Part shown: in pieces, positions 42,514 through 62,939 of the stretch
Position numbering within the stretch: the stretch's first letter is position 1
Layout: each line of letters opens with the position of its first letter
The notes under the pieces: model-generated
What the model saw: only the letters and a program-made list of their open reading frames with translations
Databases searched by the model: none
Told to the model about the DNA's origin: nothing
Source of the DNA: an uncultured Luminiphilus sp.
Lineage (GTDB): Bacteria; Pseudomonadota; Gammaproteobacteria; Pseudomonadales; Halieaceae
DNA length: 63,096 nucleotides
NCBI GenBank assembly: GCA_905182485.1
Contig: CAJJBO010000007.1
Coordinates: 1 to 63,096 of the forward strand
Direction: 5' to 3'
Translations under genes and position numbers: made by a program

Positions 42514-42678
42514 AACAGGATTGGACCAGTCGACACCATTGTGCCTGCGGCCGTCAACTATGATCTGTGGAGTATCGTCAATGATTGCTGGGGACCTATC
42601 CGCTAGCCTTTCAAAAGCCCGTGCCCTCGAGAGGGGATTGTGTATGCTGTGGAACCGTCACCATGTAGAGGCCGTTTT

Positions 42679-42990
42679 ATGACCACCATCGTCGTCTTGT
42701 TTAATTTATTGCCCGACACAGACCCGCTGGCTTACGAAAATTGGGCAAAAACCGTAGACATCCCCAATGTGCGCCGCTTGCCTGGTTGCAGCGATTTTCG
42801 GGTCCTCAAAGTGAGTGGTTTATTAGGCTCAGATGAAGCGCCACCCTACGCGTACTCAGAGATCATTGAGGTCGACGACATGGCGCCGTTCGGCGAGGCA
42901 GTGGGGAGCGAGGCAATGCAAGCGGTGGCGGCACAGTTTCAAGCGTTTGCGAAGGACCCCGTGTTCATGGTCTCGGAGTCGCTCGACTGA
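42679..42990 (+). CDS. REDY-like protein HapK family
   Basis: 103 residues from the ATG at 42679. Pattern: TTIVVLFNLLPDTDPLAYEN, WAKTVDIPNVRRLPGCSDFR and VLKVSGLLGSDEAPPYAYSE, a small ferredoxin-like alpha/beta barrel. I recognise it as the family named after HapK of a prodigiosin cluster; members outside that cluster are common near catabolic genes and have no proven activity. The longer frame from 42640 has no ribosome-binding site advantage. It stands alone on the plus strand at the left edge of the catabolic island. Confidence 0.75.
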   Translation: MTTIVVLFNLLPDTDPLAYENWAKTVDIPNVRRLPGCSDFRVLKVSGLLGSDEAPPYAYSEIIEVDDMAPFGEAVGSEAMQAVAAQFQAFAKDPVFMVSESLD

Positions 42991-43176
42991 GCTTGATCAG
43001 CCTCATCCCCTAGCCCGGCCTGACCCCTGTAACTGGCCCCTGATAACAGACCGTTGTGACTGCTCCCAATAACGTGCACCGATGTTGGCTCCGATAGAGG
43101 CAGTCACCCTGCAGAGGAGGATGCCCCAGCGCTCCGCAGGTGTTACCAGACGAGCCGCCAAACAGGGCGGGTTAGG

Positions 43177-44206
43177 TTAAACGGTCAGGTCGGGTTGCCC
43201 CACCTCAACCATGCGGACGCCAACGTTATTGCCGAGATACAAATCGGCTAATGCGTCTGGCAGCGTCTCGATGCCGCGTGAAATATCTTCCACTGGATTC
43301 AGCGCGCCTTCGCGCACCCAGGTTGCCAGTTGGTGAAGGCACTGCGGGTAACTGTCTTCGTAATCAAAGACGAAGAACCCTTCCATTTTCGCATCTTGGC
43401 GGCCGAGGTTTTGCAGGTTGATAAAGTGGTGTTTGTCTTCCGCTTCAATCAAATACTCAGAGATTGAACCGCAAATCACGATGCGCGCTCGCCGTCTCAG
43501 CCGCGCCAGTACATTGTCTAGTAGGGCGCCCCCAACGTTATCAAAGTAGAGGTCGATACCCTCTGGGAACAGCGTATTTAAAGCGAGGTCGACGTCATCA
43601 TTTTTGTAGTCGATCACGTGATCGTAGGCCATATCGTGCCGAAGTCGGGCACATTTTTCTGGCCCGCCAGCGATCCCGACCACTTCGTTAGCGCCCAGCG
43701 CTTTGGCAATTTCTGCGACGTGACTGCCCACCCCACCGGCCGCACCCGAGACGAGAATGCGATCGGTGGCAGCAACCCCTCCGATATCGCGAACCCCAAC
43801 CAGCGCGGTAATACCCGATAACGAGACGGCACCGATACCATGGGAGATCGGCAAGTCGGTGGGCAGTAAGAAAGGCGCGGGACGATCTGAGCCATCAATG
43901 AGCGCATATTCTTGCCACCCGAGACGAGCTTGCACAATTGCCCCCATGGGCAGTGAATCACAGGTTGCTCTCAATGATTTGCGCGACGCCACGACCCGGC
44001 ATCACGGTGCCCAGTGCGAGGGGCGATTCAAACTCGGTCTCGTTGCGCATGTAACGCAACATCACAGGTGCGACCCCGAGATAAAGGGTTTTTGCGACGG
44101 CTTTACCGGGTTGGAGTGCTGGGATCGGCGCATCGGTGAGCGAAAAGTGTGATCGGTCAGGGATGCCGTCGGGCCTTGCGGCTAGGCGCCATTGTTTTTG
44201 CATCAT
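43177..44206 (-). CDS. Zinc-free NADP-dependent MDR oxidoreductase (prostaglandin/curcumin reductase-like), one frameshift
   Basis: About 342 residues joined. The N-terminal frame reads MMQKQWRLAARPDGIPDRSHF and VMPGRGVAQIIESN. The second frame continues CDSLPMGAIVQARLGWQEYA, then ILVSGAAGGVGSHVAEIAKA (NADP loop) and VDLYFDNVGGALLDNVL-type text. Extra C near 43,963 (CCT for CT) accounts for the break. The family reduces alpha,beta-unsaturated ketones. It is the last gene of the leftward operon that starts at 46938, after a 102 bp gap. Confidence 0.88.
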
Positions 44207-44308: not shown

Positions 44309-44824
44309 TCAGTTTAAGCCTGATGGCGCGGGCCAAGTCACATCGGGTGTTGATTGGTCAATATCAGCAGCGATTTTCCACTGGCCGTCTTGTCTTTTAT
44401 AGACCAGTAGCGAGCGCCCCGCTTCTTTATACAGCGCGCCGGTCGTCTTGTCGGTCGCTTTAAGCCAGTACTTGCTAATGATGTAAGCGATATCACCATG
44501 CGTCTCACGCAATTCATAGTCGAGTTCAAAGGTGGCCTCGGCCTTGCCAATACGCTGCGCAAAATAGTCTCGGATCGTATCAATACCAAAGAGCGCAGGC
44601 TGTCCGTGGAGCGCCACAATGGCGTCTTCGACATAGAGTGTCATGAGGCCATCCAAGTCTGCTTGCTCGTAATAGTGTGCCCACTTGCCCCCTTCTGCGG
44701 CGATTTCGGTTTCGAAGTCACTCAATGCCATCGGTGATGACAGTAGGGCGGCGAGCAAGGCTATAGCCCCTAGCCTGAGCTGCAAAAATAAAACGCGTGA
44801 TGCAGTGCCGCGGTGACCCATCAT
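44309..44824 (-). CDS. Exported SnoaL/NTF2-fold protein
   Basis: 171 residues. An N-terminal signal or anchor (LGAIALLAALLSSPMALSD) precedes an NTF2-like domain: WAHYYEQADLDGLMTLYVED, GIDTIRDYFAQRIG and GRSLLVYKRQDGQWKIAADI. This is the SgcJ/DUF4440-like pattern, a cone-shaped cavity used by many enzymes and binding proteins. No catalytic residue can be assigned. Its start overlaps the stop of the upstream membrane-protein gene by 4 bp (ATGA), indicating coupling. Confidence 0.8.
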   Translation of the reverse strand: MMGHRGTASRVLFLQLRLGAIALLAALLSSPMALSDFETEIAAEGGKWAHYYEQADLDGLMTLYVEDAIVALHGQPALFGIDTIRDYFAQRIGKAEATFELDYELRETHGDIAYIISKYWLKATDKTTGALYKEAGRSLLVYKRQDGQWKIAADIDQSTPDVTWPAPSGLN

Positions 44825-45468
44825 TTGAACACCCCCAGCGCGGCGGCGATTAACGCAAACGCATAAATCGCTAAGACGGCGATATAGACCGGTGACAGAG
44901 CACGTTGATAAGCCGCATTCAGCTCGGCGTCATCAGGGGTTGCCCCCAATGCCAGAAAAATATCCACGGCTGGCTTGAAAAACAGGTCAAGCGCAACCCC
45001 GGCGCAAAAAATGGCACCGACAGCGAGTATCTTCAACGCCAGCCAGTCAGGCGTCGTGGTGCTAGTCAGCAAGTAAATACCGACTGCGCTGACGCCGAGT
45101 GCCAGGATTAAGTTGAGACCCCAGTTAATTTTTGCTGACTGCTCTTGGACTGTAGGGTCGGGTGAGAGGAATCCGCGCCATAAAATCACCAGCCAGATGG
45201 CGGCAAACGCCCACATGCCGCCCAATACACTATCAGACAGATTGAGCCAGCCACTGGCATTCGCCAGTTGACATCCTGAGGGCATAATTAAGGTTAGGGC
45301 AGATCTTGGGAGTCTGTCTAGCACCATGCCGAGTTGCAATACAGTTTGGCGTGTCTCAATGCTTAGGGTGGTTTTTTCAGACCATCGAGCAGCGATAAAA
45401 ACCCCTACGTCTGTGCCCACCCAAAAGACAAGCAACAGAATATGTAGATATAGCCACAAAGATGTCAT
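44821..45468 (-). CDS. Four- to six-helix membrane protein, paralogue A
   Basis: 215 residues with six hydrophobic stretches. The N terminus reads LYLHILLLVFWVGTDVGVFI, then ETRQTVLQLGMVLDRLPRSA and LIMPSGCQL. The proteins encoded at 52393-53043 and 57317-57997 share the pattern [LV]H[IV]LxLV[FY]W[VL]GxDxG and the E-x-RQT and D-x-x-PR positions. The first helix carries a conserved His and Trp. The overall look recalls CopD/DUF2269-like proteins, but I do not recognise a proven family. It sits between the 94-residue protein and the NTF2 protein in one operon. Confidence 0.72.
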   Translation of the reverse strand: MTSLWLYLHILLLVFWVGTDVGVFIAARWSEKTTLSIETRQTVLQLGMVLDRLPRSALTLIMPSGCQLANASGWLNLSDSVLGGMWAFAAIWLVILWRGFLSPDPTVQEQSAKINWGLNLILALGVSAVGIYLLTSTTTPDWLALKILAVGAIFCAGVALDLFFKPAVDIFLALGATPDDAELNAAYQRALSPVYIAVLAIYAFALIAAALGVFK

Positions 45469-45481: not shown

Positions 45482-45766
45482 TTATTGTTCTGTAATGTTC
45501 GCGCCAGATTCCAGCACGTCTTTGATCAGTTGTATTCGCGCCTGTGCCCATTCGTTGTCCTGTGATTCGCTCGGCTCGAATGTTTGCAGCGCGTCATCGG
45601 AGAGCGTGCCCGACTCAATGAGTAGCGATTCCAGCGCTTTGACCCGCTCGTTGAGCACCGAATGCTCTGTCATTAAACGAACGATAATTGCTAGAAGACG
45701 ATCCACTTCAGGGTCTTTGAAAAAGGCGGGTCGCCCCGCTTTGACGGTTTTCTTGTCATGACTCAT
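45482..45766 (-). CDS. Small conserved hypothetical protein, coiled-coil-like
   Basis: 94 residues, hydrophilic. It begins with a basic stretch (KKTVKAGRPAFFKDPEVDRL), followed by a long amphipathic helix with heptad-like hydrophobics, LLAIIVRLMTEHSVLNERVK then ALESLLIESGTL. I do not recognise a function; it may be an accessory or scaffold to the methyltransferase. Its ATG overlaps the methyltransferase stop by 4 bp, so it is translationally coupled. The membrane protein follows after 13 bp. Confidence 0.65.
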   Translation of the reverse strand: MSHDKKTVKAGRPAFFKDPEVDRLLAIIVRLMTEHSVLNERVKALESLLIESGTLSDDALQTFEPSESQDNEWAQARIQLIKDVLESGANITEQ

Positions 45767-46938
45767 ACCGACAGGCTCTTTTGCGCGCCAAAGGCATACC
45801 AGGTGATCGTATCTGATAGGCGCCCAGTGTCGCCGTCAAAGGAGGCGTCTGCGATGGCTGTTTCCGCGAACTCAGTCTCACTCACGTAGGTGAAACGCGG
45901 CATCGTCGCCTGAAAAAAATCGTCAGCCTTAAAGCCAGCATCAGTGCATAAGCGTTGGTAGCTCAAATCGCGGAACTCTTTATAGAAGGGCTCGTTGTTA
46001 TAAAAACCATCCCAGTCCAGATAAAACGCGTCATAGGCGCTGATCGCATCGTTCGGAGGTAGCTCCATATTGATGAGGATTCCACCTGGCTTGAGCACCC
46101 GGTGTGCCTCAGCAAAAAACGCCTTGATCATAGAAGTGGGTAATTCATGAAGAAACATAGAGGAAAAGACCACATCAACGCTCTTGTCTTCATAAGGGAG
46201 CGCATCGCAACCGGCTTGCCGAAAATGAATGGCGACACCCAGAGCCTCTGCTCGCGCATGCCCGTACTCTAGGCACGACGTGGCGACATCGAGACCATGT
46301 ACCTCGGCACTGGGAAAGGCTTGCTTCCACGGGAGCGTGTTGTGCCCGATGGTGCAGCCGACATCGACGATGAGATCTGGGTTGAGATTCGACCATTTGA
46401 GACGAGTAAAGTTCGCCATCGAATGACCAATGTCATCTAGGTTTTGACCCATCACACCAAAGGAGAAGACATCCAAGCCGTTGTCATAGATGATCCCCGC
46501 TGCGGTGTCATGATCCTCTCCGCCTTGATAGTTGCCTGGCATCAGATGGACGTCCATCTCTCTTGCATAGGCCGGCAGTGAGATCGTTGAATCGAGGGTT
46601 AAGGAGCCGCTTGCTTTTACCGGCGACTCGCTCTGGTGCTTATTGAGCGATTGAGGGTCATTCTCGATGGCTCGTAAGACGGATTGCCAAACTAATTCTT
46701 GAGTGGCACAGCGCAGACTGGAATACCATTTGAAAAGACCACGTTCTTTAAGGAACTGGTGCACCGCCTCGCCCGAGTCATGATTCTGGTTGGCGGCTGT
46801 CCGCGCCGCCTCGTAGTCAGCATGCATCTGGCCTGCCAGATCAGTGAGTACCCAAGCCCGCATTGACGAGGTAAAGCGTTCTCGGGCGCGCTGATCTAAA
46901 TTTTTTTTGAGTGAGAGCGAGTGTTGTAAACCGGCCAT
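45763..46938 (-). CDS. SAM-dependent methyltransferase with N-terminal extension
   Basis: 391 residues. The class I methyltransferase core starts near 185: motif I PDLIVDVGCTIGHNTLPWKQ, then AEVHGLDVATSCLEYGHAR, YEDKSVDVVFSSMFLHELP and AHRVLKPGGILINMELPP. The first 180 residues are mostly helical, with a W-rich segment (FLKERGLFKWYSSLRCATQE) that I do not recognise; it may bind the substrate. It is the first gene of a five-gene leftward operon and divergent from a TonB receptor. The methyl acceptor is probably a small molecule handled by the same pathway. Confidence 0.82.
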   Translation of the reverse strand: MAGLQHSLSLKKNLDQRARERFTSSMRAWVLTDLAGQMHADYEAARTAANQNHDSGEAVHQFLKERGLFKWYSSLRCATQELVWQSVLRAIENDPQSLNKHQSESPVKASGSLTLDSTISLPAYAREMDVHLMPGNYQGGEDHDTAAGIIYDNGLDVFSFGVMGQNLDDIGHSMANFTRLKWSNLNPDLIVDVGCTIGHNTLPWKQAFPSAEVHGLDVATSCLEYGHARAEALGVAIHFRQAGCDALPYEDKSVDVVFSSMFLHELPTSMIKAFFAEAHRVLKPGGILINMELPPNDAISAYDAFYLDWDGFYNNEPFYKEFRDLSYQRLCTDAGFKADDFFQATMPRFTYVSETEFAETAIADASFDGDTGRLSDTITWYAFGAQKSLSV

Positions 46939-47127: not shown

Positions 47128-49282
47128 ATGCAAATTAGTGTGAAACACACCTATCTACCCGCAATACTGTCAGCGGCTGTCGCGGCAACCATACCCACCA
47201 CGACCTTTGCGCAGTTGGAAGAAGTGCTCGTTACGGCTGAGAGACGCGAAGCCTCAGTGCAGGACGTGCCGATTGCGGTGAGTGCTTATAACGAAGACAT
47301 GATCGACAAATTACAAATTGATGACACGCTCGATTTGATTAATGTCGTTCCTAATATGTTTGGCGGCAACAACACCGGTCTGGGTACGGCCAATATGTAC
47401 TACCTGCGAGCGCAGGGTAATGACGAATCCATTTCGACTTTTGACCCACCCGTGGGCACTTATGTCGATGACGTCTATATCACACGCCAGAACGTCAACA
47501 ACGTGGCCCTGTTCGATGTGGAGCGTATTGAGGTATTGCGAGGCCCGCAAGGCACGCTGTACGGACGTAACACCACCGGTGGCGCGATCAGCGTGGTGAT
47601 GAAGAAGCCTTCCGATACGATGCAAGGTTACGTTGAGGCAGGTGTGGGCAATTGGGGCAAGACCTTGTTGCGCGGCAGTATTGATTTGCCGCTGAGTGAA
47701 AATGTCTTGACCAAGTTTTCCGCCTATTACGTGGATACCGACGGTTACCTTGAAAATCGTACCGATGGCAAAGACTATAACGAGGCAGATCTCACAGGCA
47801 TTCGCGCGGCATTGCGTTGGCTAATCTCGGATTCGATGACCTGGGATATTGCAGTGGATGGTGGAAAGTCAGAAGTAGCCAATATCCACGGTTTCTTGGA
47901 TGGTGACGTCGGCGGCGCTGTCCGTTCTGGGTGACGGGCTACCAATGGGCGGTGGTATGTCTGACTACGGCAACGAGGTCGACACCCTCAACATCACCTC
48001 CAATCTGGCGTGGGATGCCATGGGCGGTACGGCTAACCTGATTTTGGGTGCGCGCTCTATCGAGCAAGACTTTCTGCTGAATTTCCCTTTCTCGCTCGAT
48101 TTCTTCCCGGACTTTTTCATCATCGATAACCAGGGCGAGCACGATATGTACTCGGCTGAGTTGAAATGGTCTGGCGATATTATGGACGGGCGAGGGTTCT
48201 TACAGACTGGCGTTTACTACATGGACGAGGAGAACGAGGTAGATTTCGTGGATTATCTTGATCTCGGCGCTGTCGGGGTTCCTGTTCCGCCTTCTACCGC
48301 GTTCACTACGCTTGCCGATCGAGTACTGAGTAATACCACAGAGAGCTTCGCGGTCTACGCTCAAGCTGATATTCAAATCGGCGAGAACGGCACGCTGACA
48401 TTAGGTGCGCGTTACACCGACGAAGAAAAGACAGTGGACTTTCAGGGTACGGTGACTTCTGCGGGAATGGTGGCTGCCGGGATTCCGCTCTCGCAGAGCG
48501 AGCAGGAAATCACGCCACGTGTTGCCTACGCGCACAAATTCTCTGACAGCATGATGATGTATGTATCGGCCACCAATGGCTTTAAGTCGGGCGGCTGGAA
48601 TGCGCGGGGATCAAGTTCCGCAGCATTACAAGCTTTTGCGCCAGAGACTATTTGGTCTTATGAGTTGGGCATGCGCGCTGATTGGATGGACGGACGACTC
48701 AGGACCAACGTCACAGCGTTCTATTCTGACCTTGAGGACCTACAAACAACAGCCGCTACCCCCGATGGGCAGTTCTTAACAACTAATGCTGGTGGCTTAG
48801 AGGTGCCCGGGATTGAGGCGGAAATCACAGCGTTGCCCACCGATAACTGGCAGATCTTTGCTGCGCTCGGTTGGCAGAACGCCGAATATCAGCAATTACC
48901 GGGTGGGTGTGTCACACCTAATGCTTCTCTGGCAGCTTATGACGCGAACTGTAATATCGCCGAACCCAAGCGTAGCCCCCATCAAACTTACACCGTGGGG
49001 ACGTCAGCCGATTTCACTGTTGGCGCTCTGACACTGACGCCAAATGTGATGGTGCGCTATTTAGGTGCTCAGTACCCTGCAACGCGCAACCAGGGCTATG
49101 ATGGCTCAGTGACTTTAATCAATGCGGGGGTCAAGCTGTCAACCGCCGACTCACAGTGGGAACTCAATTTGGAATGCAAGAACTGTGGCGATAAGGTCTA
49201 CACACAGTCTTTCTTGTTTACGAGCTACTACAACCTACCCATGACGTATCAGGCGACGTTGAAGTATCGCTTTGGCGGATAA
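47128..49282 (+). CDS. TonB-dependent outer-membrane receptor (one frameshift)
   Basis: About 717 residues joined, normal for the small TonB-dependent receptor class. A signal peptide ending TTFAQ and the TonB-box-like LEEVLVTAERREASVQDVPI start the plug (VERIEVLRGPQGTLYGRNT near residue 130). The first frame ends at 47934 shortly after SEVANIHGFLDGDVGGAV; the barrel continues in frame +1 with GDGLPMGGGMSDYGNEVDTL and ends YQATLKYRFGG. The break lies near 47,925 and fits one inserted base. It is likely the outer-membrane entry point for the substrate of the island. A bidirectional terminator follows. Confidence 0.92.
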
Positions 49283-49444: not shown

Positions 49445-50263
49445 CTAGTGCATCTCCTCACCGCCACTGACGTTAATCGCCTCTCCGGTAATGAAGCTGG
49501 CGTCATCGGAGGCTAAAAAAGCACACATCGCAGCGGTGTCACCGGCCTGACCGATCCGCTGCAGAGGGATGCGCGCCGACATTTCTTCAAGATACGCCTC
49601 CTCGGTCATGCCTTTGAAGGCAGAAAAATACGCATTTTGCGCACCACCCAATGCCGTGGTGACATGGTTTGGACACACCGCATTCACGGTGACGCCTGCA
49701 GCGCCATAGTCGATTGCGGCGGTGCGGGTCAGGCCAATGACGCCGTGCTTTGCTGCGCAGTAAGGCGCCATGTGAGGAAACCCCGACTTGGCTGCTTGAC
49801 TGGCGATATTGATGATGCGGCCGCCGCGGCCAGCCGCTTCCATATGTTTGGCCGCTGCTTGCGTGCAATAAAATACGCCGCTGAGCGTGACATCGATGAC
49901 GAGGCTCCATTCTGCGGGGGCTACCTCGCGGCTGTGTTTCATGACGAATCCAATGCCGGCATTATTGACCAGCACGTCTAAACGGCCAAAGCGAGCGATG
50001 ACCTTGTCAAATAAAGTGGCTACTGAGTCTGGCGAGCGGACGTCGCAGGGAAGGCATAGCACGTTTACCCCTTTTGATTTGAGCCCCGCTGCTACGGATT
50101 CCATATCGGTAGAGCTGGCGAGATGACGATCACTGCTGTCCCCAACATCGGTCACGACGACGTTATAGCCGTCGTTAGCAAAGCGCAGCAGGATCGCTTC
50201 ACCTAATCCGCCATGTCGGCCAGAACCGGTGCAGACCACTACTTTTTGCGTATTTTCGTCCAT
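49445..50263 (-). CDS. Short-chain dehydrogenase/reductase
   Basis: 272 residues from the ATG at 50263, with AAGGAA 7 bp upstream; the frame extends a further 26 codons but without conserved text. The NAD(P) loop is CTGSGRHGGLGEAILLRF, then VNNAGIGFVMKHSREVAPAE and the catalytic Ser and YxxxK in IASQAAKSGFPHMAPYCAAK. The C terminus has LASDDASFITGEAINVSGGE. It oxidises or reduces a hydroxyl/keto group. It is 87 bp downstream of the MFS gene on the same strand. Confidence 0.92.
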   Translation of the reverse strand: MDENTQKVVVCTGSGRHGGLGEAILLRFANDGYNVVVTDVGDSSDRHLASSTDMESVAAGLKSKGVNVLCLPCDVRSPDSVATLFDKVIARFGRLDVLVNNAGIGFVMKHSREVAPAEWSLVIDVTLSGVFYCTQAAAKHMEAAGRGGRIINIASQAAKSGFPHMAPYCAAKHGVIGLTRTAAIDYGAAGVTVNAVCPNHVTTALGGAQNAYFSAFKGMTEEAYLEEMSARIPLQRIGQAGDTAAMCAFLASDDASFITGEAINVSGGEEMH

Positions 50264-50350
50264 GATGATTCCTTTGTTAAGGCGGCGGTGCGGGGTATTC
50301 ATGACCGTTTGCGCCGATGTCCTCGCAATAGGCAGCTGCACCAGCGAGGC

Positions 50351-54732: not shown

Positions 54733-54758
54733 ATGATATGTTTTTATATCATGATGCT
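54733..54758. promoter_or_regulatory. Inverted repeat with TATATCATGATGCT, candidate GntR operator
   Basis: ATGATAT (54733-54739) and ATATCAT (54746-54752) form a 7 bp inverted repeat with a 6 bp spacer. The right arm extends to TATATCATGATGCT (54745-54758), which matches 13 of 14 bases at 58133. It lies in the 112 bp gap between divergent operons. Confidence 0.55.
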
Positions 54759-54785
54759 CTGCACTTCAGCAAAACAGGAACAGTA

Positions 54786-55457
54786 ATGGAAACCAGCGAC
54801 CTGACCGCGCGACAGATTTTTCGACAGCTCCAGGAAAACCCCAGCCGTGCCCGCTTTGGCTTTGGCCAAAAAGCCATATTGGTGAATATCGACCTGCAAA
54901 AGGCTTACACACGGACCGACCGTTTTAAGACGGCGTACGAAACCGATCCTAATCAGCTGCAATATGTGAATGATTTAGCGGGCGCTTTTCACGCACTGGG
55001 CTGGCCTGTTGTCTGGACTCACGTCGCTTTTATGGCGTCCGGTGAGGACTGCGGTATCTGGGGCACCCGCACTGATACGCCAGACTCCCTGCAGAATATT
55101 AAATTTGGTTCGGAGCGCGCCGAATTTGATGATCGGCTTCAGATTGATGCTGAGCGTGATGTGATCTACTGCAAGAAAATGCCCTCCGCTTTTTTTGAGA
55201 CGGCGTTGCAGTCCTTATGTGTCTGGCATCAAGTTGATACAGTTGTTATGACGGGTGGTTCGACCAGTGGCTGCATTCGGGCGACGGCTGTGGATTCTTT
55301 GTCTCGAGGATATCGCACCATAGTGCCTGAGGAGTGTGTCGCTGATAAGCACGAGAGTTACCACTTTGCTAACTTAACGGATCTGGCGATTAAGTATGCT
55401 GACGTGATGGGAGTGGATGAGGTGCTAGATTGGCTGTCGCAGCAGGAGCGCTCGTGA
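54786..55457 (+). CDS. Isochorismatase-family amidohydrolase
   Basis: 223 residues from the ATG at 54786. The cysteine-hydrolase triad is complete: D36 in LVNIDLQKAYT, K131 in CKKMPSAFFET and C163 in TGGSTSGCIRATAVDSLSRG. This is the N-carbamoylsarcosine amidase/RutB/NicF type (TSGCIRAT), which removes ammonia from an amide or ureido group. It starts the only plus-strand operon of the island core. The next gene begins within its stop codon (GTGA). The candidate regulator site lies about 30 bp upstream of its start. Confidence 0.9.
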   Translation: METSDLTARQIFRQLQENPSRARFGFGQKAILVNIDLQKAYTRTDRFKTAYETDPNQLQYVNDLAGAFHALGWPVVWTHVAFMASGEDCGIWGTRTDTPDSLQNIKFGSERAEFDDRLQIDAERDVIYCKKMPSAFFETALQSLCVWHQVDTVVMTGGSTSGCIRATAVDSLSRGYRTIVPEECVADKHESYHFANLTDLAIKYADVMGVDEVLDWLSQQERS

Positions 55458-56380
55458 CCGAGATAGCACAATTTTCGGAGCTCTCCCTCTACAATTACAG
55501 CCCCTACGATGAGCGGCCTAAAATCGTGTGGCCAAACGGTGCGCGTTTGGCGTTTTGGGTGGCGCCTAATATAGAGTTTTACGAGCTCAATCCCCCGACC
55601 AATCCTCACCGTCAGCCATGGCCTCACCCTTATCCGCCAGTGCCGGGTTACAGTATTCGAGATTACGGTAATCGCGTCGGTCATCAGCGGCAAATGGCCT
55701 TGCTCGACAAATATGGCGTGCGCGGGTCTATTAGCCTGTCAGCCGCACTGTGCGAGCATCATCCCGAAATTATCGCCTTGTGCGCCGAGCGAAACTGGGA
55801 ATTTTTCAGTCATGGGATTTACAACACGCGCTATACCTATGGTCTGACAGAGGACCAAGAGCGCGAGATGATTGAAGACGCCATGGACACGATTGAGCGC
55901 GCCGTGGGTCAGCGCCCAGCAGGTTATCTGGCGCCAGCTTTGTCTCACTCAAATCACACGATTGATCTCTTTGCCGAGGCGGGCGGCTTGTATACTTGTG
56001 ATCTATTCCATGATGATCAACCGACATGGGTGAATACGCGATCTGGTAAACCGTTTGTCTCCATTCCCTATTCTTTAGAACTCAATGACACCATTGCTTA
56101 TGTGGTACAAAAGAGGGAGCCGCGCCGTTACGGTGAGAGCATCCGTCTGGCATTTGATCAGTTGTATGCTGAGGGTGCTGACAGTGGCACGGTGATGTGC
56201 ATCCCCACACACAATTATCAGGTGAGCTGCCCTCACCGTTTGCGCGCCTTTGAAGAGGCACTCGAATACATCACCGGTCATAGTGATGTTTGGGTCACCA
56301 CCGGTCGAGAGATTGCCGACTACACAATCGCCTATGGTCGACAGCAATTAGAGGGCAGTGCGGTGGTGCCATCAGCATGA
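55454..56380 (+). CDS. Polysaccharide deacetylase-fold hydrolase (PuuE/imidase-like), paralogue 1
   Basis: 308 residues from the GTG at 55454, which overlaps the previous stop (GTGA) and has AGGAG 5 bp upstream. The NodB-like barrel shows PKIVWPNGARLAFWVAPNIE, YSIRDYGNRVGHQRQMALLD, EFFSHGIYNTRYTYGLTEDQ, GYLAPALSHSNHTIDLFAEA and CIPTHNYQVSCPHRLRAFEE. This pattern belongs to the PuuE allantoinase and cyclic-imide-hydrolase branch, which opens cyclic amides, rather than to chitin deacetylases. In this operon a cyclic nitrogen compound is the likely substrate. The next gene overlaps by 4 bp. Confidence 0.85.
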   Translation: MTEIAQFSELSLYNYSPYDERPKIVWPNGARLAFWVAPNIEFYELNPPTNPHRQPWPHPYPPVPGYSIRDYGNRVGHQRQMALLDKYGVRGSISLSAALCEHHPEIIALCAERNWEFFSHGIYNTRYTYGLTEDQEREMIEDAMDTIERAVGQRPAGYLAPALSHSNHTIDLFAEAGGLYTCDLFHDDQPTWVNTRSGKPFVSIPYSLELNDTIAYVVQKREPRRYGESIRLAFDQLYAEGADSGTVMCIPTHNYQVSCPHRLRAFEEALEYITGHSDVWVTTGREIADYTIAYGRQQLEGSAVVPSA

Positions 56381-57303
56381 GCGACGAGTTACTGTCTTAT
56401 CCACAGCGTCACTATGGCATGGACCATGATCGTTATCGGTGGTCCATGCTGCAAGACCGGGCCCCCATCGTATGGCCTGACAATAAGCCGTTAGCACTTT
56501 GGATAAACATCGCTGTTCAGCATTTCCCGCTTTCGGGAGACAAGCCCATGGTCGCGCCACCCGGGGCGCTGACCATGCCCTACCCGGACCTGCGGCATTA
56601 CACCCTGCGCGATTATGGTAATCGAGTCGGTATTTTCAGAATAATGACATTAATGCAGCAGTATCAGGCGACACCCTCGGTGGCGATTTCAGGTGCTTTA
56701 GCACTGCGTTACCCGAGGCTGATGGAGCGGCTGTCAGCGACCGGCTACGAATGGCTGGGTCATGGTTGGAACATGCTGTGTATGCATGCCGGTGACATTG
56801 ATATTGCAACAGAGTCTGAATGGATTGCGCAAACCCGTGAGGCGCTCGAGGCATTTACCGATCAGCCCTTGAAAGGCTGGTTGAGTCCTGGGCGCAGTCA
56901 AACTGCCAATACGCCTGAGCTGCTGATGCGCAATGGATTTAGCTATCAATGCGATTGGGTGAACGACGAGTTGCCCTACCCGTTTAAAACGGATGAAGGT
57001 GACATGACGTGCCTGCCTTCGTGCTTGGAACTCGATGATGTCTTTGTCCTGACACAAAATCTGCACAGTGAAGAGAGTTTTGTCCAACAGGTGAGTGATG
57101 CGGCAGATTTACTGATTGAAGAAGGCCAAAAGCAGGCGGGCCGATTGCTGGCGCTGAATCTGCACCCTTGGCTAGTGGGTCAACCTCACCGTGTGTCTGC
57201 CGTGAAAAACTTGCTCGAAGCGCTTTTGGTGGAGCGGAGTGACGCCATTTGGCATGCGTCACCCAGCTCGATTGTTGACGCCGCAATCGATCAGATTGAC
57301 TAG
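56377..57303 (+). CDS. Polysaccharide deacetylase-fold hydrolase (PuuE/imidase-like), paralogue 2
   Basis: 308 residues from the ATG at 56377 (ATGA overlap with the preceding stop). Same layout as its neighbour: APIVWPDNKPLALWINIAVQ, YTLRDYGNRVGIFRIMTLMQ, EWLGHGWNMLCMHAGDIDIA, GWLSPGRSQTANTPELLMRN and LNLHPWLVGQPHRVSAVKNL. Catalytic-region residues differ from paralogue 1: LSPGRSQT replaces LAPALSHS, and LHPWLVGQP replaces THNYQVSCP. The two therefore probably have different roles or form a mixed oligomer. It ends the three-gene operon, 13 bp before the convergent membrane-protein gene. Confidence 0.85.
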   Translation: MSDELLSYPQRHYGMDHDRYRWSMLQDRAPIVWPDNKPLALWINIAVQHFPLSGDKPMVAPPGALTMPYPDLRHYTLRDYGNRVGIFRIMTLMQQYQATPSVAISGALALRYPRLMERLSATGYEWLGHGWNMLCMHAGDIDIATESEWIAQTREALEAFTDQPLKGWLSPGRSQTANTPELLMRNGFSYQCDWVNDELPYPFKTDEGDMTCLPSCLELDDVFVLTQNLHSEESFVQQVSDAADLLIEEGQKQAGRLLALNLHPWLVGQPHRVSAVKNLLEALLVERSDAIWHASPSSIVDAAIDQID

Positions 57304-57316: not shown

Positions 57317-57997
57317 TTAGATCGCTTTGGTTGCACCAAAGAAGGCAACCGAGGCGATTGTTACCCAATAACAGTAGGCCAGTCGTTTGCCCACGACTAA
57401 GCTTTTCTCTAACTGATCTTCAGCGGCTTGATTGGGGCCTTCGGCTAGCACTCTGAACAGGGTTGTCCACTCGCGCATAATAAAGCGCAACTTGAGGCCG
57501 ATCATGAGCGTGACGCTATAGAGCAGAATCTTGATGGTGAACCAATATTGCATCGGGCCCACGTTGAAGGGCCCGTAGCCCATCAGCGAGCTAATGGATG
57601 CAATGACCATGATGGGAATCAAGACAAAACGGACGCGCTCATCCCACAGCGTCAACTGGATGCCGCGATCGGTTTCGCGATAAACATAGGCAGAAACACA
57701 GAGTGTCAGCCAGCCGATCGCCAAGAGCCACACCGCCACCAGAAAGCCGCCACCGAAAGGCTGAACGCCCCATAAATGGCCCATGTGTAGCCCGAGAGGC
57801 AGCAGGCTAATAATGCCAATGCGCGCGAGAATATCGATGTTATAGGCTGTCTGCATGTGCCGGCGGCGCTCTTCCATCGACAGCTTGCGATTGATCACGT
57901 GGGTTGACGTATTGAAGACACCCCATTCGCCACCGAGCCAATACACCATCGCAAGGATGTGCAGCCAGCGCAGCACCGCTAATTCAGTTACTCCCAT
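57317..57997 (-). CDS. Small membrane protein, paralogue C
   Basis: 226 residues with about six hydrophobic stretches. The N terminus LRWLHILAMVYWLGGEWGVF matches paralogues A and B in the first helix (H-x-L-x-x-V-Y-W-L-G-G). SMEERRRHMQTAYNIDILAR corresponds to the E-x-R-Q-T...D-x-x-x-R segment. It is the most distant of the three. Its position between convergent hydrolase and divergent GntR gene suggests regulation with the regulator itself. Function unknown. Confidence 0.72.
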   Translation of the reverse strand: MGVTELAVLRWLHILAMVYWLGGEWGVFNTSTHVINRKLSMEERRRHMQTAYNIDILARIGIISLLPLGLHMGHLWGVQPFGGGFLVAVWLLAIGWLTLCVSAYVYRETDRGIQLTLWDERVRFVLIPIMVIASISSLMGYGPFNVGPMQYWFTIKILLYSVTLMIGLKLRFIMREWTTLFRVLAEGPNQAAEDQLEKSLVVGKRLAYCYWVTIASVAFFGATKAI

Positions 57998-58182: not shown

Positions 58183-58953
58183 ATGGAAGAAGTCTTTAGC
58201 GCACACGTTGTCGGTCAGCTATCAAAGCAGTCGCCCACGCCGTTGTACCATCAGCTATTCTCGTTACTGAAGTCGCGCATTTTGGACGGTACGCTTGCTT
58301 ATGGTACGCGATTACCCCCTGAGGAACGCTTGGCGGACATTTTCAGTGTGTCGCGGATTACCGCTAAGCGTGCGATGGACGATTTATCCAAAGACGCCCT
58401 CGTGGAGCGCCGCCGGGGTCGCGGTACTCACGTCATTTACCAATACAGCCCGCGACCCGTTCAAGCGCCATTGACCGGTATGTTGCAAGAAATTGAGAGT
58501 ATGGCGCGGAACTCGGTAGCGCAGATTCTCGACTTTGGTATCCGCATCCCCCCGCAGAAGATTCGCGAAGATCTTAGACTCGCAGAGGGCGAAACGGTCC
58601 TACATTTACTCCGAGTCCGTGAGCGGGACGGTATGAGGTTTGGTCACTACACCAGTTGGACAGCAGGGGTCAAAATGCCCGCTGATCCTGCCATTTTTGA
58701 AAATACGCCTCGACTGAGTTACTTCCGCCAGCAAGGTCTAGAGGTGAGTCACGTCACGCAAATGTTGTCTGCCGTCTCGGCTGACGCCTCGGTGGCCGCT
58801 GCACTGGATGTTGTTGAAGGCAGTCCATTATTGAGTTTGACCCGTCGTTCTTATCAAAAGACCGGCGCTGAAGCAGAGCAAATCATGGATTTTCTGGAGG
58901 TGCTCTACAATCCCGAGCACTTCCAATATTCGATGGATCTCACGCTTGACTGA
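58183..58953 (+). CDS. GntR-family transcriptional regulator (HutC type, UTRA domain)
   Basis: 256 residues. The winged HTH spans about 15-85: PLYHQLFSLLKSRILDGTLA, LPPEERLADIFSVSRITAKR and AMDDLSKDALVERRRGRGTH. The UTRA ligand-binding domain follows from about 105 and includes ILDFGIRIPPQKIREDLRLA and VLHLLRVRERDGMRFGHYTS. HutC-type regulators usually repress catabolic operons and are released by a pathway intermediate. Candidate operators with TATATCAT occur before this gene, the divergent membrane gene and the amidohydrolase operon. It is convergent with the carbon-nitrogen hydrolase gene. Confidence 0.92.
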   Translation: MEEVFSAHVVGQLSKQSPTPLYHQLFSLLKSRILDGTLAYGTRLPPEERLADIFSVSRITAKRAMDDLSKDALVERRRGRGTHVIYQYSPRPVQAPLTGMLQEIESMARNSVAQILDFGIRIPPQKIREDLRLAEGETVLHLLRVRERDGMRFGHYTSWTAGVKMPADPAIFENTPRLSYFRQQGLEVSHVTQMLSAVSADASVAAALDVVEGSPLLSLTRRSYQKTGAEAEQIMDFLEVLYNPEHFQYSMDLTLD

Positions 58954-58957
58954 GGCT

Positions 58958-60007
58958 TTAGATAACCCCTCTTTTTTTTAATCGCTCAATGGCCGCTGTT
59001 TGCTGACTCATAAAATGGGAACGTTCAGGTGTGACAATATCGCCTGTTTCAGAAATCAAATTATCCTCTGGGTAAAAGTCATCCTGTTCGTAAGTCGATT
59101 TAAAGAGTGATAAGCGTTGCCGTGCCAGTAGGTTGGTCATAGCGGGTTTGGATCTCGCTTCACGGAGGCGCGCTATGTCAATCATAGCGTGTGCCACCAT
59201 TGATTCTCCCGTGTAGGCTTCCGTGACGACTTGACCCTTAAAATCCACCACTTGAGAATGCCCTTGAGTGGAATTTTGTGGGACGGGGGAATGATGAATG
59301 GCAGAAGTATTACTTGAAATGACGTAACACATGTTTTCGTAGGCACGCGCACATTTGGCGATATTTTTAGGCGTCGGCCGCGGACTACCCACTTCGCTAG
59401 AGGAATGGAGAATCACTTCTGCGCCGCGTGTGGCCAATGCCCGTGTGACTTCGGGGTAGAGTATTTCTTCTGATGCCACGCAGGCCAGCCTACCCAAAGG
59501 TGTTTCCACCACTGGAAAGAGCGCGTCGGCGCCGTACACCTCAATGTACTGCGAGAGGACATCGTGGGGGGTGGGCGCGAACATCGATATGAGACGGCGG
59601 TAGCGAAGAATGACCTCGCCCGAATCGTTAATGATAAAACTGGTTTGGAAATAAAGGTCAGGGAAGTGAGGGTCAAGCTCGTATGCATTACCCGACAGAT
59701 AGACCCCACGCGTTTTAGCAATCTCGCCCATACGCTGGTATTCAGCACCATCCATTTCGATACAGGCCTTAGTGCGCCACTCGGCGATACTCTCGCCCAT
59801 GGGGAAGCTGGTCAGGAAGTACTCGGGAAGCACGACTAGTTTTAGGGTATCGCCACTAAAGGTACCAATAAAAGCTTTGCTACCCGCGATTGCTTCGTCT
59901 ACGTGGTCTAACGTTTTTGAAATGGCATCGTCAACGGACCCCCGATCGGGGAGCGCGTTAATTGCCGTACAATCCAGTTGTAATGCTAGGGCAGAATAAG
60001 GTGTCAC
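58958..60007 (-). CDS. Carbon-nitrogen hydrolase (nitrilase superfamily)
   Basis: 349 residues. The catalytic Glu is E62 in LVVLPEYFLTSFP and the nucleophile C176 in LGRLACVASEEILYPE. The position that normally carries the catalytic Lys (YRK) reads YRRL, with Arg at 138, in LRYRRLISMFAPTPHDV. The overall pattern resembles aliphatic amidase or N-carbamoyl amino acid hydrolase relatives. It should cleave an amide, nitrile or carbamoyl group. The start is GTG with GGAG about 9 bp upstream. It follows the DUF1330 gene by 6 bp and is the last gene of the leftward operon. Confidence 0.85.
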   Translation of the reverse strand: MTPYSALALQLDCTAINALPDRGSVDDAISKTLDHVDEAIAGSKAFIGTFSGDTLKLVVLPEYFLTSFPMGESIAEWRTKACIEMDGAEYQRMGEIAKTRGVYLSGNAYELDPHFPDLYFQTSFIINDSGEVILRYRRLISMFAPTPHDVLSQYIEVYGADALFPVVETPLGRLACVASEEILYPEVTRALATRGAEVILHSSSEVGSPRPTPKNIAKCARAYENMCYVISSNTSAIHHSPVPQNSTQGHSQVVDFKGQVVTEAYTGESMVAHAMIDIARLREARSKPAMTNLLARQRLSLFKSTYEQDDFYPEDNLISETGDIVTPERSHFMSQQTAAIERLKKRGVI

Positions 60008-60013: not shown

Positions 60014-60319
60014 TTACTCCAAAGGTGTTTGTTGCAATCCCTCGACCAACATGACGCGAAATGTCCCTGTACCTTCTCGGAGTGGTTTTGCGGCAGCATA
60101 GGCGTCGCTGTGCCAAAACGCGTTAGCCTGTTCGGCAGAGGGCCAACGGTGCATGACCAGGCGTGTGCCACCCCATTCTCCTTCAAGGGCATTCTGTTGC
60201 CCACCCAGGACTAAATACTCACCGCCGTGTTTGGCCACAATATCGGGCACTACACGGGCGTAGGCGGCGAACTTTTCGGGGTCATGAATTTCGGCTTCAA
60301 CGATTATATAGGCGGTCAT
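60014..60319 (-). CDS. DUF1330 family protein
   Basis: 101 residues, a complete small alpha/beta-barrel: TAYIIVEAEIHDPEKFAAYA, RVVPDIVAKHGGEYLVLGGQ and MHRWPSAEQANAFWHSDAYA, closing with FRVMLVEGL. DUF1330 proteins have unknown activity and are frequent beside catabolic genes. It is cotranscribed with the carbon-nitrogen hydrolase (6 bp gap). Upstream lies a 17 bp dyad that could control this pair. Confidence 0.85.
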   Translation of the reverse strand: MTAYIIVEAEIHDPEKFAAYARVVPDIVAKHGGEYLVLGGQQNALEGEWGGTRLVMHRWPSAEQANAFWHSDAYAAAKPLREGTGTFRVMLVEGLQQTPLE

Positions 60320-60438: not shown

Positions 60439-62004
60439 TCAGGATAAACCCAGCACGCCAGGGTTCATGATCCCATCGGGGTCAAGAGAAGCCTTGATGC
60501 CTAGGATTAAATCGCGTGCGGCGGGCTTCAGCGCGTCTTGATAATGGTAGGCCTTCCCCAGTTGTAAGTGGCTGGCACCTTCCCGAGATAGCACGTCAAT
60601 CACCGCGCTTTTTACTTTTTGCACCGCTTCCCACGCGTTGGGTACCGCATCAAACTGATGGAGTCGTGCCAGATGATCTGATTCGAGAGAATGTTTATGC
60701 AGTGCATTCAATGCATCGGGCCAAAAAAAGACCGGCTCTAACACCGTAATTTGTTCGCTCACAACCGCTATCAGGTAACCGGTCTCAATATTGAACTGCG
60801 CTAATAGTGCTTGGTGGTCAGCATAGACCGACTCAATGGCAGCCAGCACCGCTTCGCCGCGAGAGTGAGGGACGAGTCCATGCACGGGCAACCATCGCTC
60901 ACCTTCTGCTCCGACCATATTATTGACTGGCCCGAAGGGATTAGCCGCAAGAATGCGCGGAATGCTGTCGGGTAGCTCTGTGCCCCCTTCTGCAGCACAG
61001 ATGGCGCGAATACGGTCGGCTTGAAAGGCGGTTTCCTCGTCTGTGCGTCCTTCACTGATGGTAAACATGGCCCACTCAACGTCATCCATAAACCGACGAC
61101 CTGATAGTGCAATTTTCGCGCTTTGTTTGAGCTTGCCTACAAGACTGGACTCCGCTTTAACAACGCCAGAGAGCTGTTGCGCGTCGGCGGCGAGACTGGC
61201 TCGTTTCATGCGCTGTTTTTGCAGGTAGGGGTCGAAGCCAAAGCATTCAGTGGTCAAGGACTCCCGAGAAATTTGCGCCATCGCGCGCAACATGGGTCCA
61301 GATGTTTCAAAAGCGAAGCTGGTGTAGCTTTTTGAACCAGCCAGCGGGACCAACGGCAGTGTGGCTCTTACTTTGATACCCAAGGCGCCACAATCACTGG
61401 CAAATAAGCCTGTGAGATCTGGGCCGAAATGTCGGGTAAAGGGTGCGGCGTGGCGTTGGCTTGCTGAGCCAGTTTCGATTAATTCCCCCTTGCCGGTGAC
61501 CACGCTCAGCGACAGCACATTGTCAGCGGCCGTGCCGTGCTGGCCGCTTCCCCAAAAAATACTGTTTTGAGAAAGCCCACCGCCTACCGTAGCAAAACGC
61601 CCTGATAGCGTCCCCCAATAGGGTGTGCGGACACCCAAGGGAGCCAGCGCTTCATAGAGCGCTTGCCAGCTACAGCCGGTTTCGACGGTAACGTAACGAT
61701 CCTCTAGATTGATCTCAACAATGGCGTTCATGCTGGTGATGTCCACTAATAGACTGTCTGGCGCCGTGGCGAGATAACCACTGGTGTAACTCATTCCGCC
61801 ACCGCGCGTCACGATGGGCGTACCGCGTTCCCGGCACGCACGCACCAGCGCTTGAACTTCTTCGATGTTGCGCGGCGTGACGACGGCGCAGACCTTTGGG
61901 CCCAACGTAAAAACGTCTTGCGAGTAGAGGGCGATTTGTTCTGGATCCGTCTGAATGATTTCCGTGGGCAGTAATTGTTCGATAGTGGATACCACTGCGT
62001 TCAT
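60439..62004 (-). CDS. FAD-linked oxidase (PCMH/VAO type)
   Basis: 521 residues from the ATG at 62004, with GGAGG 7 bp upstream; an open frame of 33 more codons lies ahead but lacks family text. The FAD-binding domain reads ALVRACRERGTPIVTRGGGM, then SYTSGYLATAPDSLLVDITS, YWGTLSGRFATVGGGLSQNS and GKGELIETGSA. The C terminus has LILGIKASLDPDGIMNPGVL, the usual D-P-x-x-x-x-N-P-G-x-L end. It belongs to the D-lactate dehydrogenase/VAO fold and oxidises a 2-hydroxy acid, alcohol or ring. No His/Cys covalent-flavin site is obvious. It is the first gene of the leftward operon. Confidence 0.88.
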   Translation of the reverse strand: MNAVVSTIEQLLPTEIIQTDPEQIALYSQDVFTLGPKVCAVVTPRNIEEVQALVRACRERGTPIVTRGGGMSYTSGYLATAPDSLLVDITSMNAIVEINLEDRYVTVETGCSWQALYEALAPLGVRTPYWGTLSGRFATVGGGLSQNSIFWGSGQHGTAADNVLSLSVVTGKGELIETGSASQRHAAPFTRHFGPDLTGLFASDCGALGIKVRATLPLVPLAGSKSYTSFAFETSGPMLRAMAQISRESLTTECFGFDPYLQKQRMKRASLAADAQQLSGVVKAESSLVGKLKQSAKIALSGRRFMDDVEWAMFTISEGRTDEETAFQADRIRAICAAEGGTELPDSIPRILAANPFGPVNNMVGAEGERWLPVHGLVPHSRGEAVLAAIESVYADHQALLAQFNIETGYLIAVVSEQITVLEPVFFWPDALNALHKHSLESDHLARLHQFDAVPNAWEAVQKVKSAVIDVLSREGASHLQLGKAYHYQDALKPAARDLILGIKASLDPDGIMNPGVLGLS

Positions 62005-62216
62005 ATTGTGCCTCCGGATCAAAGCCGTTTTGCCAAACGAAAAGGGTAGCAGAGGCCGCAACAATTGGCGTGCCTCATCATATGTCGGCCTAATAAATAG
62101 CATATTCTCCGAACGAGGGCATTAGATAGTGTGGCCCCGACAAGTTGCTAAGCCGCTATCAACTCCCCGTCATGATCACGGTATGATGCAAATCGGTTGG
62201 ACTCTGAGGTATCCGT

Positions 62217-62939
62217 ATGCGATCGCAGGGGTTTTCGCACGTGGTGATCACTACTGCTCACACGCGAGTGCTGGGCGGATTTTTTGCGGCACTGGGTTGG
62301 CACTCGCTGACGGTCGATTTAATGTCAGAGGCTTTGGCATTTTGGGGTGTTGAGCCAAGTGAGACTCCGGCGATGCGCTGGATACCGCCCTCCAATGCCT
62401 GTGAGGTATTACTGCTACCGACGCCACAAGAGGTGCCAGTACTGCGCCCGGTAGACTGTGCTGTCACCACTCCGGGAGGCCTTTTCGATATCAATATGCG
62501 GACCGTCGATAGCGACTGGTCCCACGACTTTTTGCAATGCCATGGATGGCAGCCTTTGGTTGATCCGGTAGCGTGGCAATTCGGTGATATCGAGACCAAA
62601 GAGGGGCTTTATATTCAAGAAGATGGCATCGTGCTGGCTGTCATGGAGCGGCTGCAACCACCGTTGCCAACGGTCGCATTCGATCGTATGAGTGATGTTT
62701 TTAATGCCACGCAGATGGTACGCAATGTCGATCAGACGGTCGCCTTTTTGAAACATCTGAACTTCGAGCGTTTTATCCAGCATCACGGTCCGCTCCCCGG
62801 TGCGGGGCCAAAGGTGCTGCAATTGGAGCGTCGTCCAGCAGATACCGGTGACATCGAGCTCGCTATTTTGCATCCAGAGGCGTGTATGGAGGGCTCTCTC
62901 GAGTTGTCGAGGTCCTGCATCACCCCATTGAGCGGCTAA
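62217..62939 (+). CDS. Two-domain VOC-family protein, paralogue 2
   Basis: 240 residues. The first VOC module begins FSHVVITTAHTRVLGGFFAA and LGWHSLTVDL; the second begins SDVFNATQMVRNVDQTVAFL and has KHLNFERFIQHHGPL. The middle has GGLFDINMRTVDSD and IETKEGLYIQEDG. It is shorter than the protein at 53053-53895 but shares the two-module layout. No complete metal-ligand set is visible, so activity is unclear. The ATG at 62217 has TGAGGT about 6 bp upstream. It is divergent from the FAD oxidase, so both may answer the same signal. Confidence 0.7.
   Translation: MRSQGFSHVVITTAHTRVLGGFFAALGWHSLTVDLMSEALAFWGVEPSETPAMRWIPPSNACEVLLLPTPQEVPVLRPVDCAVTTPGGLFDINMRTVDSDWSHDFLQCHGWQPLVDPVAWQFGDIETKEGLYIQEDGIVLAVMERLQPPLPTVAFDRMSDVFNATQMVRNVDQTVAFLKHLNFERFIQHHGPLPGAGPKVLQLERRPADTGDIELAILHPEACMEGSLELSRSCITPLSG

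Follow-up and report, generated by a model that had tools for sequence, protein, structure and literature searches.

The stretch of DNA analyzed here (the window) comprises bases 1-63096 of the 152,770-base contig C7, part of a 2.17-Mb, 70%-complete metagenome-assembled genome (MAG) of an uncultured Luminiphilus sp., and toward its end it carries three adjoining genes that form the core of a putative imide-degrading cluster. The first, ISO (54720..55457, plus strand), encodes an isochorismatase/N-carbamoylsarcosine-amidase-type amidohydrolase (PF00857, 98.2 bits) in which conservation starts at M23 (~54786). It is followed on the same strand by NodB1 (55430..56380), a PuuE-like NodB-fold hydrolase (TIGR03212, 121.3 bits; PuuE structure 3cl6, 1e-30), and by NodB2 (56290..57303), a second and more divergent NodB-fold protein (TIGR03212, 104.2 bits; 1z7a, 3.7e-25). 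The genes of this triad overlap by 4 nucleotides each, with a GTG at 55454 on the ISO stop (GTGA) and an ATG at 56377 on the NodB1 stop (ATGA). Both NodB proteins pass the superfamily profile PF01522 (gathering score 23.1) with 34.0 and 23.8 bits, and their alignment to PuuE-like structures spans 220-250 residues. An earlier reading of this stretch by a model working from the letters alone (the original prediction) had described an isochorismatase-type amidohydrolase with an intact D/K/C triad and two NodB-fold hydrolases, and both descriptions held: residues D58, K152, and C185 of ISO recur in no fewer than 97% of the 79 sequences aligned.

Neighborhoods were compared for the 80 best of 150 relatives, 47 of which had flanks of 9 kb or more on either side and are referred to as full-flank loci; neighboring genes were clustered de novo (BLAST communities), with labels taken from Pfam scans of 1 to 4 members each and the rest assigned by community. 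Gene content, order, conservation, and linkage could be read directly from these loci. NodB1 had ISO beside it in 79 of the 80 loci and NodB2 beside it in 78, all three misses falling at contig ends, and the order of the triad was kept in essentially every relative examined. The nearest named relatives of the window locus were Luminiphilus/Halieaceae MAGs, and carriers among the best 80 included Halieaceae, Halomonas-type genera, Microbulbifer, Alteromonas, Rhodocyclaceae, and others. The triad was also present on plasmids of Sphingomonas, Sphingobium, Comamonas, Burkholderia, Acidiphilium, and Salipiger, and it spans the gamma-, beta-, and alphaproteobacteria. In the 66 loci outside the 14 Luminiphilus-type ones, identity to the window's proteins was 70 to 83% (median, 75%) for NodB1 and 30 to 53% (median, 47%; the minimum is from a truncated locus) for NodB2. 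Divergent triads or ISO genes occur with amidases, hydantoinase A/B, nitrilase, and asparaginase on Salipiger, Terrarubrum, and Thioclava plasmids (L087, L090, and L091). The original prediction had called for a search for a conserved neighborhood, and such a neighborhood was found in all three classes; this degree of conservation appears to exceed chance. A chance or decaying collection of genes without a common function, to which we assign a very small probability, would agree with the several reading frames broken within and past the stretch. Order and content are nevertheless conserved over many genera and plasmids, the TonB receptor and LeuC are unbroken in relatives, and the proposal was rejected because of this conservation.

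Bacterial cyclic imide hydrolase opens a cyclic amide and is grouped with PuuE in the NodB fold. The two NodB proteins resemble PuuE allantoinase and cyclic imide hydrolase (the latter by description only) in fold and in the expected opening of a cyclic amide. Unlike PuuE, they score far below the allantoinase cut-off of TIGR03212 (424.6 bits) and form a tandem pair beside an amidase. ISO shares its D-K-C triad with N-carbamoylsarcosine amidohydrolase and the NicF-RutB-type amidases, its closest solved relatives, and its best PDB match was N-carbamoylsarcosine amidohydrolase (26st, 2.2e-28). Unlike RutB and biuret hydrolase, however, ISO scores far under both curated equivalog cut-offs (23.9 versus 378 bits for RutB; 25 versus 370 bits for biuret amidohydrolase). 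The NodB2 consensus has Gln at the position of the conserved Glu49 of NodB1, and NodB2 may thus be a partner of NodB1 and not a second catalyst. The original prediction had allowed for ring opening by one or both NodB proteins; for both together this is, given the substitution, unproven.

The neighbors of the triad point to the fate of the released acid. The 47 full-flank loci had, no farther than 10 kb from the triad, LeuC in 34 cases, LeuD in 28, a PEP-mutase/ICL-type (PrpB/PEPM-like) lyase in 31, CaiB in 17, and an HMGL-type lyase in 10. LeuC accompanied the triad in all 21 Halomonas-type and all 5 Luminiphilus-type full-flank loci and in 8 of the 21 others. The window's own cluster runs past the window end on C7 to ~70.8 kb and includes LeuC, LeuD, CaiB, MDR, HMGL, and aldehyde dehydrogenase; LeuC, LeuD, CaiB, and HMGL are present there as pieces, of which the HMGL-type piece was confirmed by Pfam (54 bits). 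On Sphingomonas plasmid pJE1 the gene order is HMGL-ISO-NodB1-NodB2-LeuC-LeuD-ICL/PEPM lyase. Different cleavage modules alternate beside the triad, namely, a PrpB-like lyase, CaiB plus HMGL, or CaiB plus MaoC (mesaconyl-CoA hydratase family) plus a CitE-like lyase, and all of them would fit cleavage of a 2-methylmalate-type bond. Four Microbulbifer loci and Alteromonas lipolytica (L070) combine the last of these modules with an acyl-CoA dehydrogenase. A TRAP transporter is found in Halomonas-type loci (DctP, DctM, and DctQ confirmed in L034).

In the lower part of nicotinate fermentation, dimethylmaleate hydratase (DmdAB) is followed by 2,3-dimethylmalate lyase. The clusters resemble this pathway in that the small subunit from Burkholderia plantarii falls in the LeuD/DmdB subfamily (L085; TIGR02087, 143.5 bits against a cut-off of 108.95) and dimethylmalate lyase (3fa3) is one of several matches of the pJE1 lyase; they differ from it in that the hydratase and lyase would act after an imide-opening triad. 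The 2-methylcitrate cycle (PrpB/AcnD) offers a second likeness through the PrpB-like lyase, and that chemistry, extended by one carbon, would yield pyruvate and glutarate. Here, in contrast to that cycle, an imide would be the input, and CoA-dependent variants occur. The logic of the lower pathway is thus argued by analogy with these two sets of reactions. Since the LeuCD and lyase partners would give the released acid an onward route, the original prediction of an undescribed catabolic island, in which NodB-type enzymes open a ring and deamidation comes next, is supported by these partners together with the conservation of the triad.

These partners also bear on a hydantoin or ureide route, in which NodB1 would be a hydantoinase or allantoinase and ISO an N-carbamoyl amino-acid amidase. 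The nearest characterized relatives, PuuE allantoinase and N-carbamoylsarcosine amidase, agree with such a route, as does a divergent triad that adjoins hydantoinase A/B genes. The amino-acid product, however, would not suit LeuCD and malate-type lyases, and the PuuE, RutB, and biuret hydrolase scores lie far under their cut-offs. We consider this route improbable.

The expectation of glutarate was checked on the plasmid cluster of B. plantarii, whose annotation already listed acyl-CoA dehydrogenase, CaiB, and ETF genes. This cluster (L085) contains a glutaryl-CoA dehydrogenase (GCDH), a CoA-transferase-like protein, ETF-like subunits, the LeuD/DmdB-type subunit, LeuC, a PrpB-like lyase (277 bits, below its cut-off of 354), a GntR regulator, and the triad, and the cassette is flanked by two insertion-sequence genes. 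Its dehydrogenase matched 3gnc, a glutaryl-CoA dehydrogenase, with 735 bits (1.8e-220), compared to 237 bits for the best clearly otherwise-named entry (acyl-CoA oxidase 4) and 584 bits for one entry named simply acyl-CoA dehydrogenase; judged by these similarities, it is a glutaryl-CoA dehydrogenase. Relatives of the enzyme (70-71%) immediately precede ISO in L020 and L033, and in L073 one stands beside ISO in divergent orientation; all three loci have the same LeuC type as B. plantarii (54-56%). A 50% relative is present in L040, which is without that LeuC type. The B. plantarii plasmid p1 (L130, 18.9-34.7 kb), typed as conjugative, holds a compact version of the pathway, and near-identical cassettes (97-100% for most proteins compared) are carried by Sphingomonas pJE1 and Sphingobium pTomTYG65b.

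An alternative would be a pathway of the isonicotinate/citrazinate type, running from a glutarimide carboxylate to tricarballylate, then to cis-aconitate by a TcuA-like flavoenzyme, and on to an isocitrate-like cleavage. The aconitase-type and ICL-type partners are consistent with it, and near the triad of Halomonas and B. plantarii there is an FAD_binding_2 protein similar to the flavocytochrome c/TcuA families, although below all cut-offs shown. Such a route would leave GCDH, the glutarate CoA-transferase-like protein, the relatives of red chlorophyll catabolite reductase (RCCR), and the chlorophyllase-like genes unexplained, and a literature search on it found no relevant paper. Its probability appears low, similar to that of the hydantoin or ureide route.

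The recurrent association with LeuCD and a C-C lyase fits a substituted maleimide that is opened, deamidated, hydrated, and cleaved, and we infer the reactions and the substrate class as follows. NodB1, perhaps in complex with NodB2, would open the cyclic imide of a substituted maleic acid; ISO would then free the nitrogen of the half-amide (maleamate type) as ammonia. A LeuCD-type hydratase would convert the (alkyl)maleate to the (alkyl)malate. In the window's lineage CaiB plus an HMGL-type lyase, and elsewhere a PrpB-like lyase, would then split this product to pyruvate and an acid or acyl-CoA. This imide-to-diacid-to-pyruvate logic, drawn from analogous families, is in our judgment likely to be correct. 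The likeliest natural substrates would be maleimides from oxidized tetrapyrroles (chlorophyll, bilins, and heme), with hematinic acid, which bears methyl and carboxyethyl substituents, as the type case yielding pyruvate and glutarate. Tetrapyrrole fragments such as hematinic acid are suggested by the plasmid version with GCDH and CoA-transferase and by the linkage to RCCR described below. According to passages of PMC7318184, hematinic acid is among the chlorophyll breakdown products in leaves, and maleimides and hematinic acid are cited there from senescent leaves and lake sediments.

Relatives of RCC_reductase (PF06405; RCCR) were found no more than 10 kb from the triad in 8 of the 80 loci, four of them from Microbulbifer and the others L035, L043, L052, and L075. 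All four members scanned passed the gathering score of 24.9 (L019, 48.3 bits; L035, 57.3; L063, 58.0; L075, 70.7), and a profile built from six RCCR relatives placed plant RCCR at the top (3agb, 2.5e-18), followed by bilin reductase (2.2e-6) and HY2 (0.068). Among 140 genomes of the family, RCCR was over the cut-off in 10 and NodB1 was present in 30; NodB1 occurred in 9 of the 10 genomes with RCCR versus 21 of the 130 without it (P = 2.8e-6 by genome and 0.007 by genus). A class-wide sample of 369 genomes, of low power, had RCCR in 3 and NodB1 in 5 (the window's own genome included), with both in 1, on separate contigs (P = 0.04). The two genes were 6.5-11 kb apart in five of the nine family genomes with both and 49 kb apart in one. 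On the contig of L021 (G048), a span of ~65 kb encloses both an RCCR module and one of the window type (FAD4, DUF1330, NIT, GntR, mem57, triad, LeuCD, CaiB, and HMGL). In the passages of PMC10151467, RCCRs serve as an outgroup to bilin reductases, and those passages describe no chlorophyll-catabolic cluster.

The four non-Microbulbifer RCCR loci all contained a Rieske gene, and three of them contained a chlorophyllase-family hydrolase; L071 had a Rieske gene and a chlorophyllase-family hydrolase with no RCCR inside its flank. PrpB-like and CaiB-plus-HMGL routes occurred together in all five Rieske-gene loci (L035, L043, L052, L071, and L075), as would be expected if multiple ring fragments were processed. 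The chlorophyllase family PF07224 (gathering score 26) was passed by the proteins of L075 (49.4 bits), L052 (46.7 bits), and L071 (32.6 bits). Cluster-linked members ranked 1, 3, 4, 12, and 29 among the 30 best family-wide matches, these 30 being the ones for which linkage was judged against the listed places of NodB1 and RCCR. The Halieaceae loci thus resemble the plant PAO/phyllobilin pathway in having RCCR relatives, a chlorophyllase-family protein, and a Rieske oxygenase. They differ from it in that the Rieske protein is of the VanA_C type and in that no Staygreen match was obtained (Mg-dechelatase PF12638, 0 of 140 genomes, with search controls also silent). To our knowledge, no ring mineralization of this kind is known from plants. 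Two conserved proteins with no Pfam match are encoded near the bacterial RCCR at L075:5746-6744 and 6816-7787, one of them with a GHSAGG lipase-like motif and the other apparently internally repeated.

Several observations weigh against the proposed route and its tetrapyrrole substrate. With respect to the lower pathway, LeuC was absent from 13 of the 47 full-flank loci, and the L085 CaiB protein fell under the NF052585 cut-off of 750 (542 bits over its full length; next family, 318), although by these scores it appears closest to succinate-glutarate CoA-transferase. The Comamonas plasmid triad (NodB1, 61%) is without LeuC and LeuD among its annotated neighbors, and distant triads (Salipiger, 56%; Terrarubrum, 46%) lie beside amidase, hydantoinase, or nitrilase genes, so the wider triad family probably serves several substrates. 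Moreover, 22 of the 80 loci are Halomonas-type and hence not independent. With respect to RCCR, 72 of the 80 loci had none within their flanks, and neither the by-genome nor the by-genus test of co-occurrence with NodB1 corrects fully for common ancestry. In three of the nine genomes with both genes, RCCR was on another contig or 0.9 Mb from NodB1, and RCCR occurred without NodB1 in G041, G383, and G479. The Microbulbifer RCCR loci showed neither a Rieske nor a chlorophyllase relative in their flanks, and the one Rieske protein scanned, that of L035, had matches to Rieske, VanA_C, and KshA_C but none to a PAO domain up to an E value of 0.5. The chlorophyllase family was rejected as a stand-alone marker as unspecific, with matches in 89 of 140 genomes at an E value of 0.001 and in 50 over the cut-off; because such matches are common, family membership alone is weak evidence of function. 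The window's 70%-complete MAG gave no RCCR (PF06405) match; the controls of that search were silent, but its profile was positive elsewhere in the family. No other sampled genome of the genus showed an RCCR match; the tetrapyrrole reading for Luminiphilus therefore rests on relatives. Finally, passages of PMC7318184 report that hematinic acid was detected in that study's own leaf samples and that maleimides were not.

Some genomes without NodB1 also have RCCR, accompanied either by a Rieske gene plus a hydrolase-like gene (c123) or by a relative of the chlorophyllase family (L126, L125, and L128). The upper module may therefore form a separate unit.

A rival explanation is general cyclic-imide scavenging, in which small imides (citraconimide, maleimide, or succinimide) from many sources would be consumed and the proximity of RCCR and chlorophyllase-like genes in Halieaceae and Microbulbifer would be local and incidental. 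In its favor, RCCR lies close to the triad in just 8 of 80 loci, and in the 22 Halomonas-type loci the partner of the triad is a TRAP transporter, with no member of the RCCR, Rieske, or chlorophyllase clusters. On the other hand, a carboxyethyl side chain would be in keeping with the GCDH found in several clusters, and linkage to RCCR is found in two lineages, Halieaceae and Microbulbifer. General scavenging is, in our estimate, the leading alternative, with perhaps a one-in-four standing. For a tetrapyrrole origin of the substrate itself, we regard the case as evenly balanced. The substrate that the original prediction could not name would, from the comparison of loci, be a cyclic imide of a substituted maleate and probably tetrapyrrole derived, and the odds are about level that the clusters of triad, LeuCD, and lyase degrade tetrapyrrole-derived maleimides to pyruvate and an acid.

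The remaining genes of the window portion surround the triad on both sides. Downstream, mem57 (57317..57997, minus strand) encodes a membrane protein with no Pfam match above the cut-off and with homologues in 17 of the 80 loci. It is a paralogue of the proteins at 52393-53043 (mem52; minus strand, again with no Pfam match above the cut-off) and 44821-45468; mem52 and mem57 are ~30% alike along their length, in agreement with the membrane paralogues originally predicted. Next come a GntR/UTRA (HutC-type) regulator (58183..58953, plus; PF00392 and PF07702), with relatives near the triad in 38 of the 47 full-flank loci; NIT, a nitrilase-type carbon-nitrogen hydrolase (58958..60007, minus; PF00795, 109 bits), with homologues in 20 of the 80 loci; a DUF1330 protein (60014..60319, minus; PF07045, 2.8e-29); and FAD4, an FAD_binding_4 oxidase/dehydrogenase (60439..62103, minus; PF01565, 2.2e-34) with 37% identity to an FAD oxidoreductase in the pJE1 triad cluster. 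The last frame (62217..62939, plus) holds the first part of a ~313-amino-acid protein with no Pfam match that another frame continues past 62939.

Upstream of ISO lies U53 (53945..54703, minus), which has no Pfam match and whose model resembles half-barrels of the DUF1849/LolA-like fold; matches from Foldseek and VIA gave this fold only and no function, and a role as a binder of a lipophilic ligand is possible. Its paralogue U51 (51632..52396, plus; ~32% identity, no Pfam match) is probably a half-barrel of the same type, as judged from the model of U53 alone. By that model, neither looks like a VOC protein. A VOC fold is present in the stretch in the two-module protein at 53053..53895 (minus; no Pfam match; model pLDDT of 91.7, with Foldseek matches to glyoxalase/dioxygenases), so that one of the two predicted VOC proteins could be confirmed here; a second VOC relative lies just past the window end (L102:3127-4053). 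Further upstream are an MFS carrier (50351..51556, minus; PF07690, 148 bits), an SDR oxidoreductase (49445..50341, minus; PF13561, 196 bits), a TonB-dependent receptor in two frames (47128..49282, plus; PF07715 and PF00593), a methyltransferase (45763..46938, minus; PF13649, 77 bits) with homologues (77-79%) at the equivalent place in L008, L009, L010, and L012, a SnoaL-type protein with the third membrane paralogue (44309..45468, minus), a REDY-like HapK protein (within 42640..44194, plus; PF11639, 33.7 bits), and an MDR-type dehydrogenase (43177..44194, with a second frame at 43967-44194, minus; PF00107, 72.9 bits). Pfam thus confirmed the carbon-nitrogen hydrolase, FAD-linked oxidase, SDR, MFS carrier, methyltransferase, and HutC-type GntR regulator named earlier; the TonB receptor and MDR reductase have the predicted domains, but each is split over two frames. 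HapK, of a prodigiosin-cluster family, occurs with an adjoining SDR near the triad in L019, L022, L029, L032, L063, L070, and L076, which are Microbulbifer, Alteromonas-type, and one Rubrivivax-labeled genome, and HapK is in the window's cluster as well.

The stretch belongs to a putative catabolic cluster that measures ~28 kb and is larger than its window portion: most genes of the ~20-kb island originally described are real, but that island is incomplete and continues to ~C7:70.8 kb. The island probably starts somewhere downstream of an AsnC regulator and a DUF6537/POR oxidoreductase gene. The latter, at 36338-39562 just upstream of the island, encodes a 1,074-amino-acid protein that we take to be of the indolepyruvate ferredoxin oxidoreductase kind. 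Frame-split genes in the window include the TonB receptor (47128-47934 and 47900-49282), an OYE-type enzyme (40503-42513), and the MDR gene (43177-44194); frames are also broken at 62217-end, L102:4152-7372, and L102:8523-9424, so that cluster genes extend over two or three frames. In Luminiphilus-type relatives the TonB receptor and LeuC are each in a single frame, the receptor being unbroken in six such loci. A homopolymer origin of the breaks was rejected, since 7 of the 8 break sites scanned had no run of 6 or more. The breaks would reflect either assembly indels or gene decay.

A literature search, mostly open access and without bioRxiv preprints, found nothing that links cyclic imides to isochorismatase and polysaccharide deacetylase. 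No bacterial pathway of this kind was among the matches listed for dimethylmaleate hydratase, maleimides, hematinic acid/bilirubin, imidases/maleamate, bacterial RCCR clusters, or bacterial chlorophyll breakdown. We know of no described bacterial enzymes that consume the pyrrole rings of chlorophyll and return their nitrogen, and none came up among the matches listed. Tentatively, and with somewhat less confidence than in the substrate, we suggest that marine Gammaproteobacteria (Halioglobus, Pseudohalioglobus, Microbulbifer, and relatives) may hold a full chlorophyll-mineralizing route, of which Luminiphilus would have the lower half. Such a route would begin with a chlorophyllase-like ester cleavage, followed by Rieske-dependent opening of the macrocycle, reduction by the bacterial RCCR, and release of monopyrrolic imides, and would end with imide opening by the triad and final cleavage to pyruvate and glutarate or other acids. 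Chlorophyll is made and degraded at ~10^12 kg a year, according to passages of PMC7318184. If the proposal is true, a small, mobile, and diagnostic gene set would name the enzymes, the substrate class, the products, and culturable carriers for the consumption of pyrrole rings.

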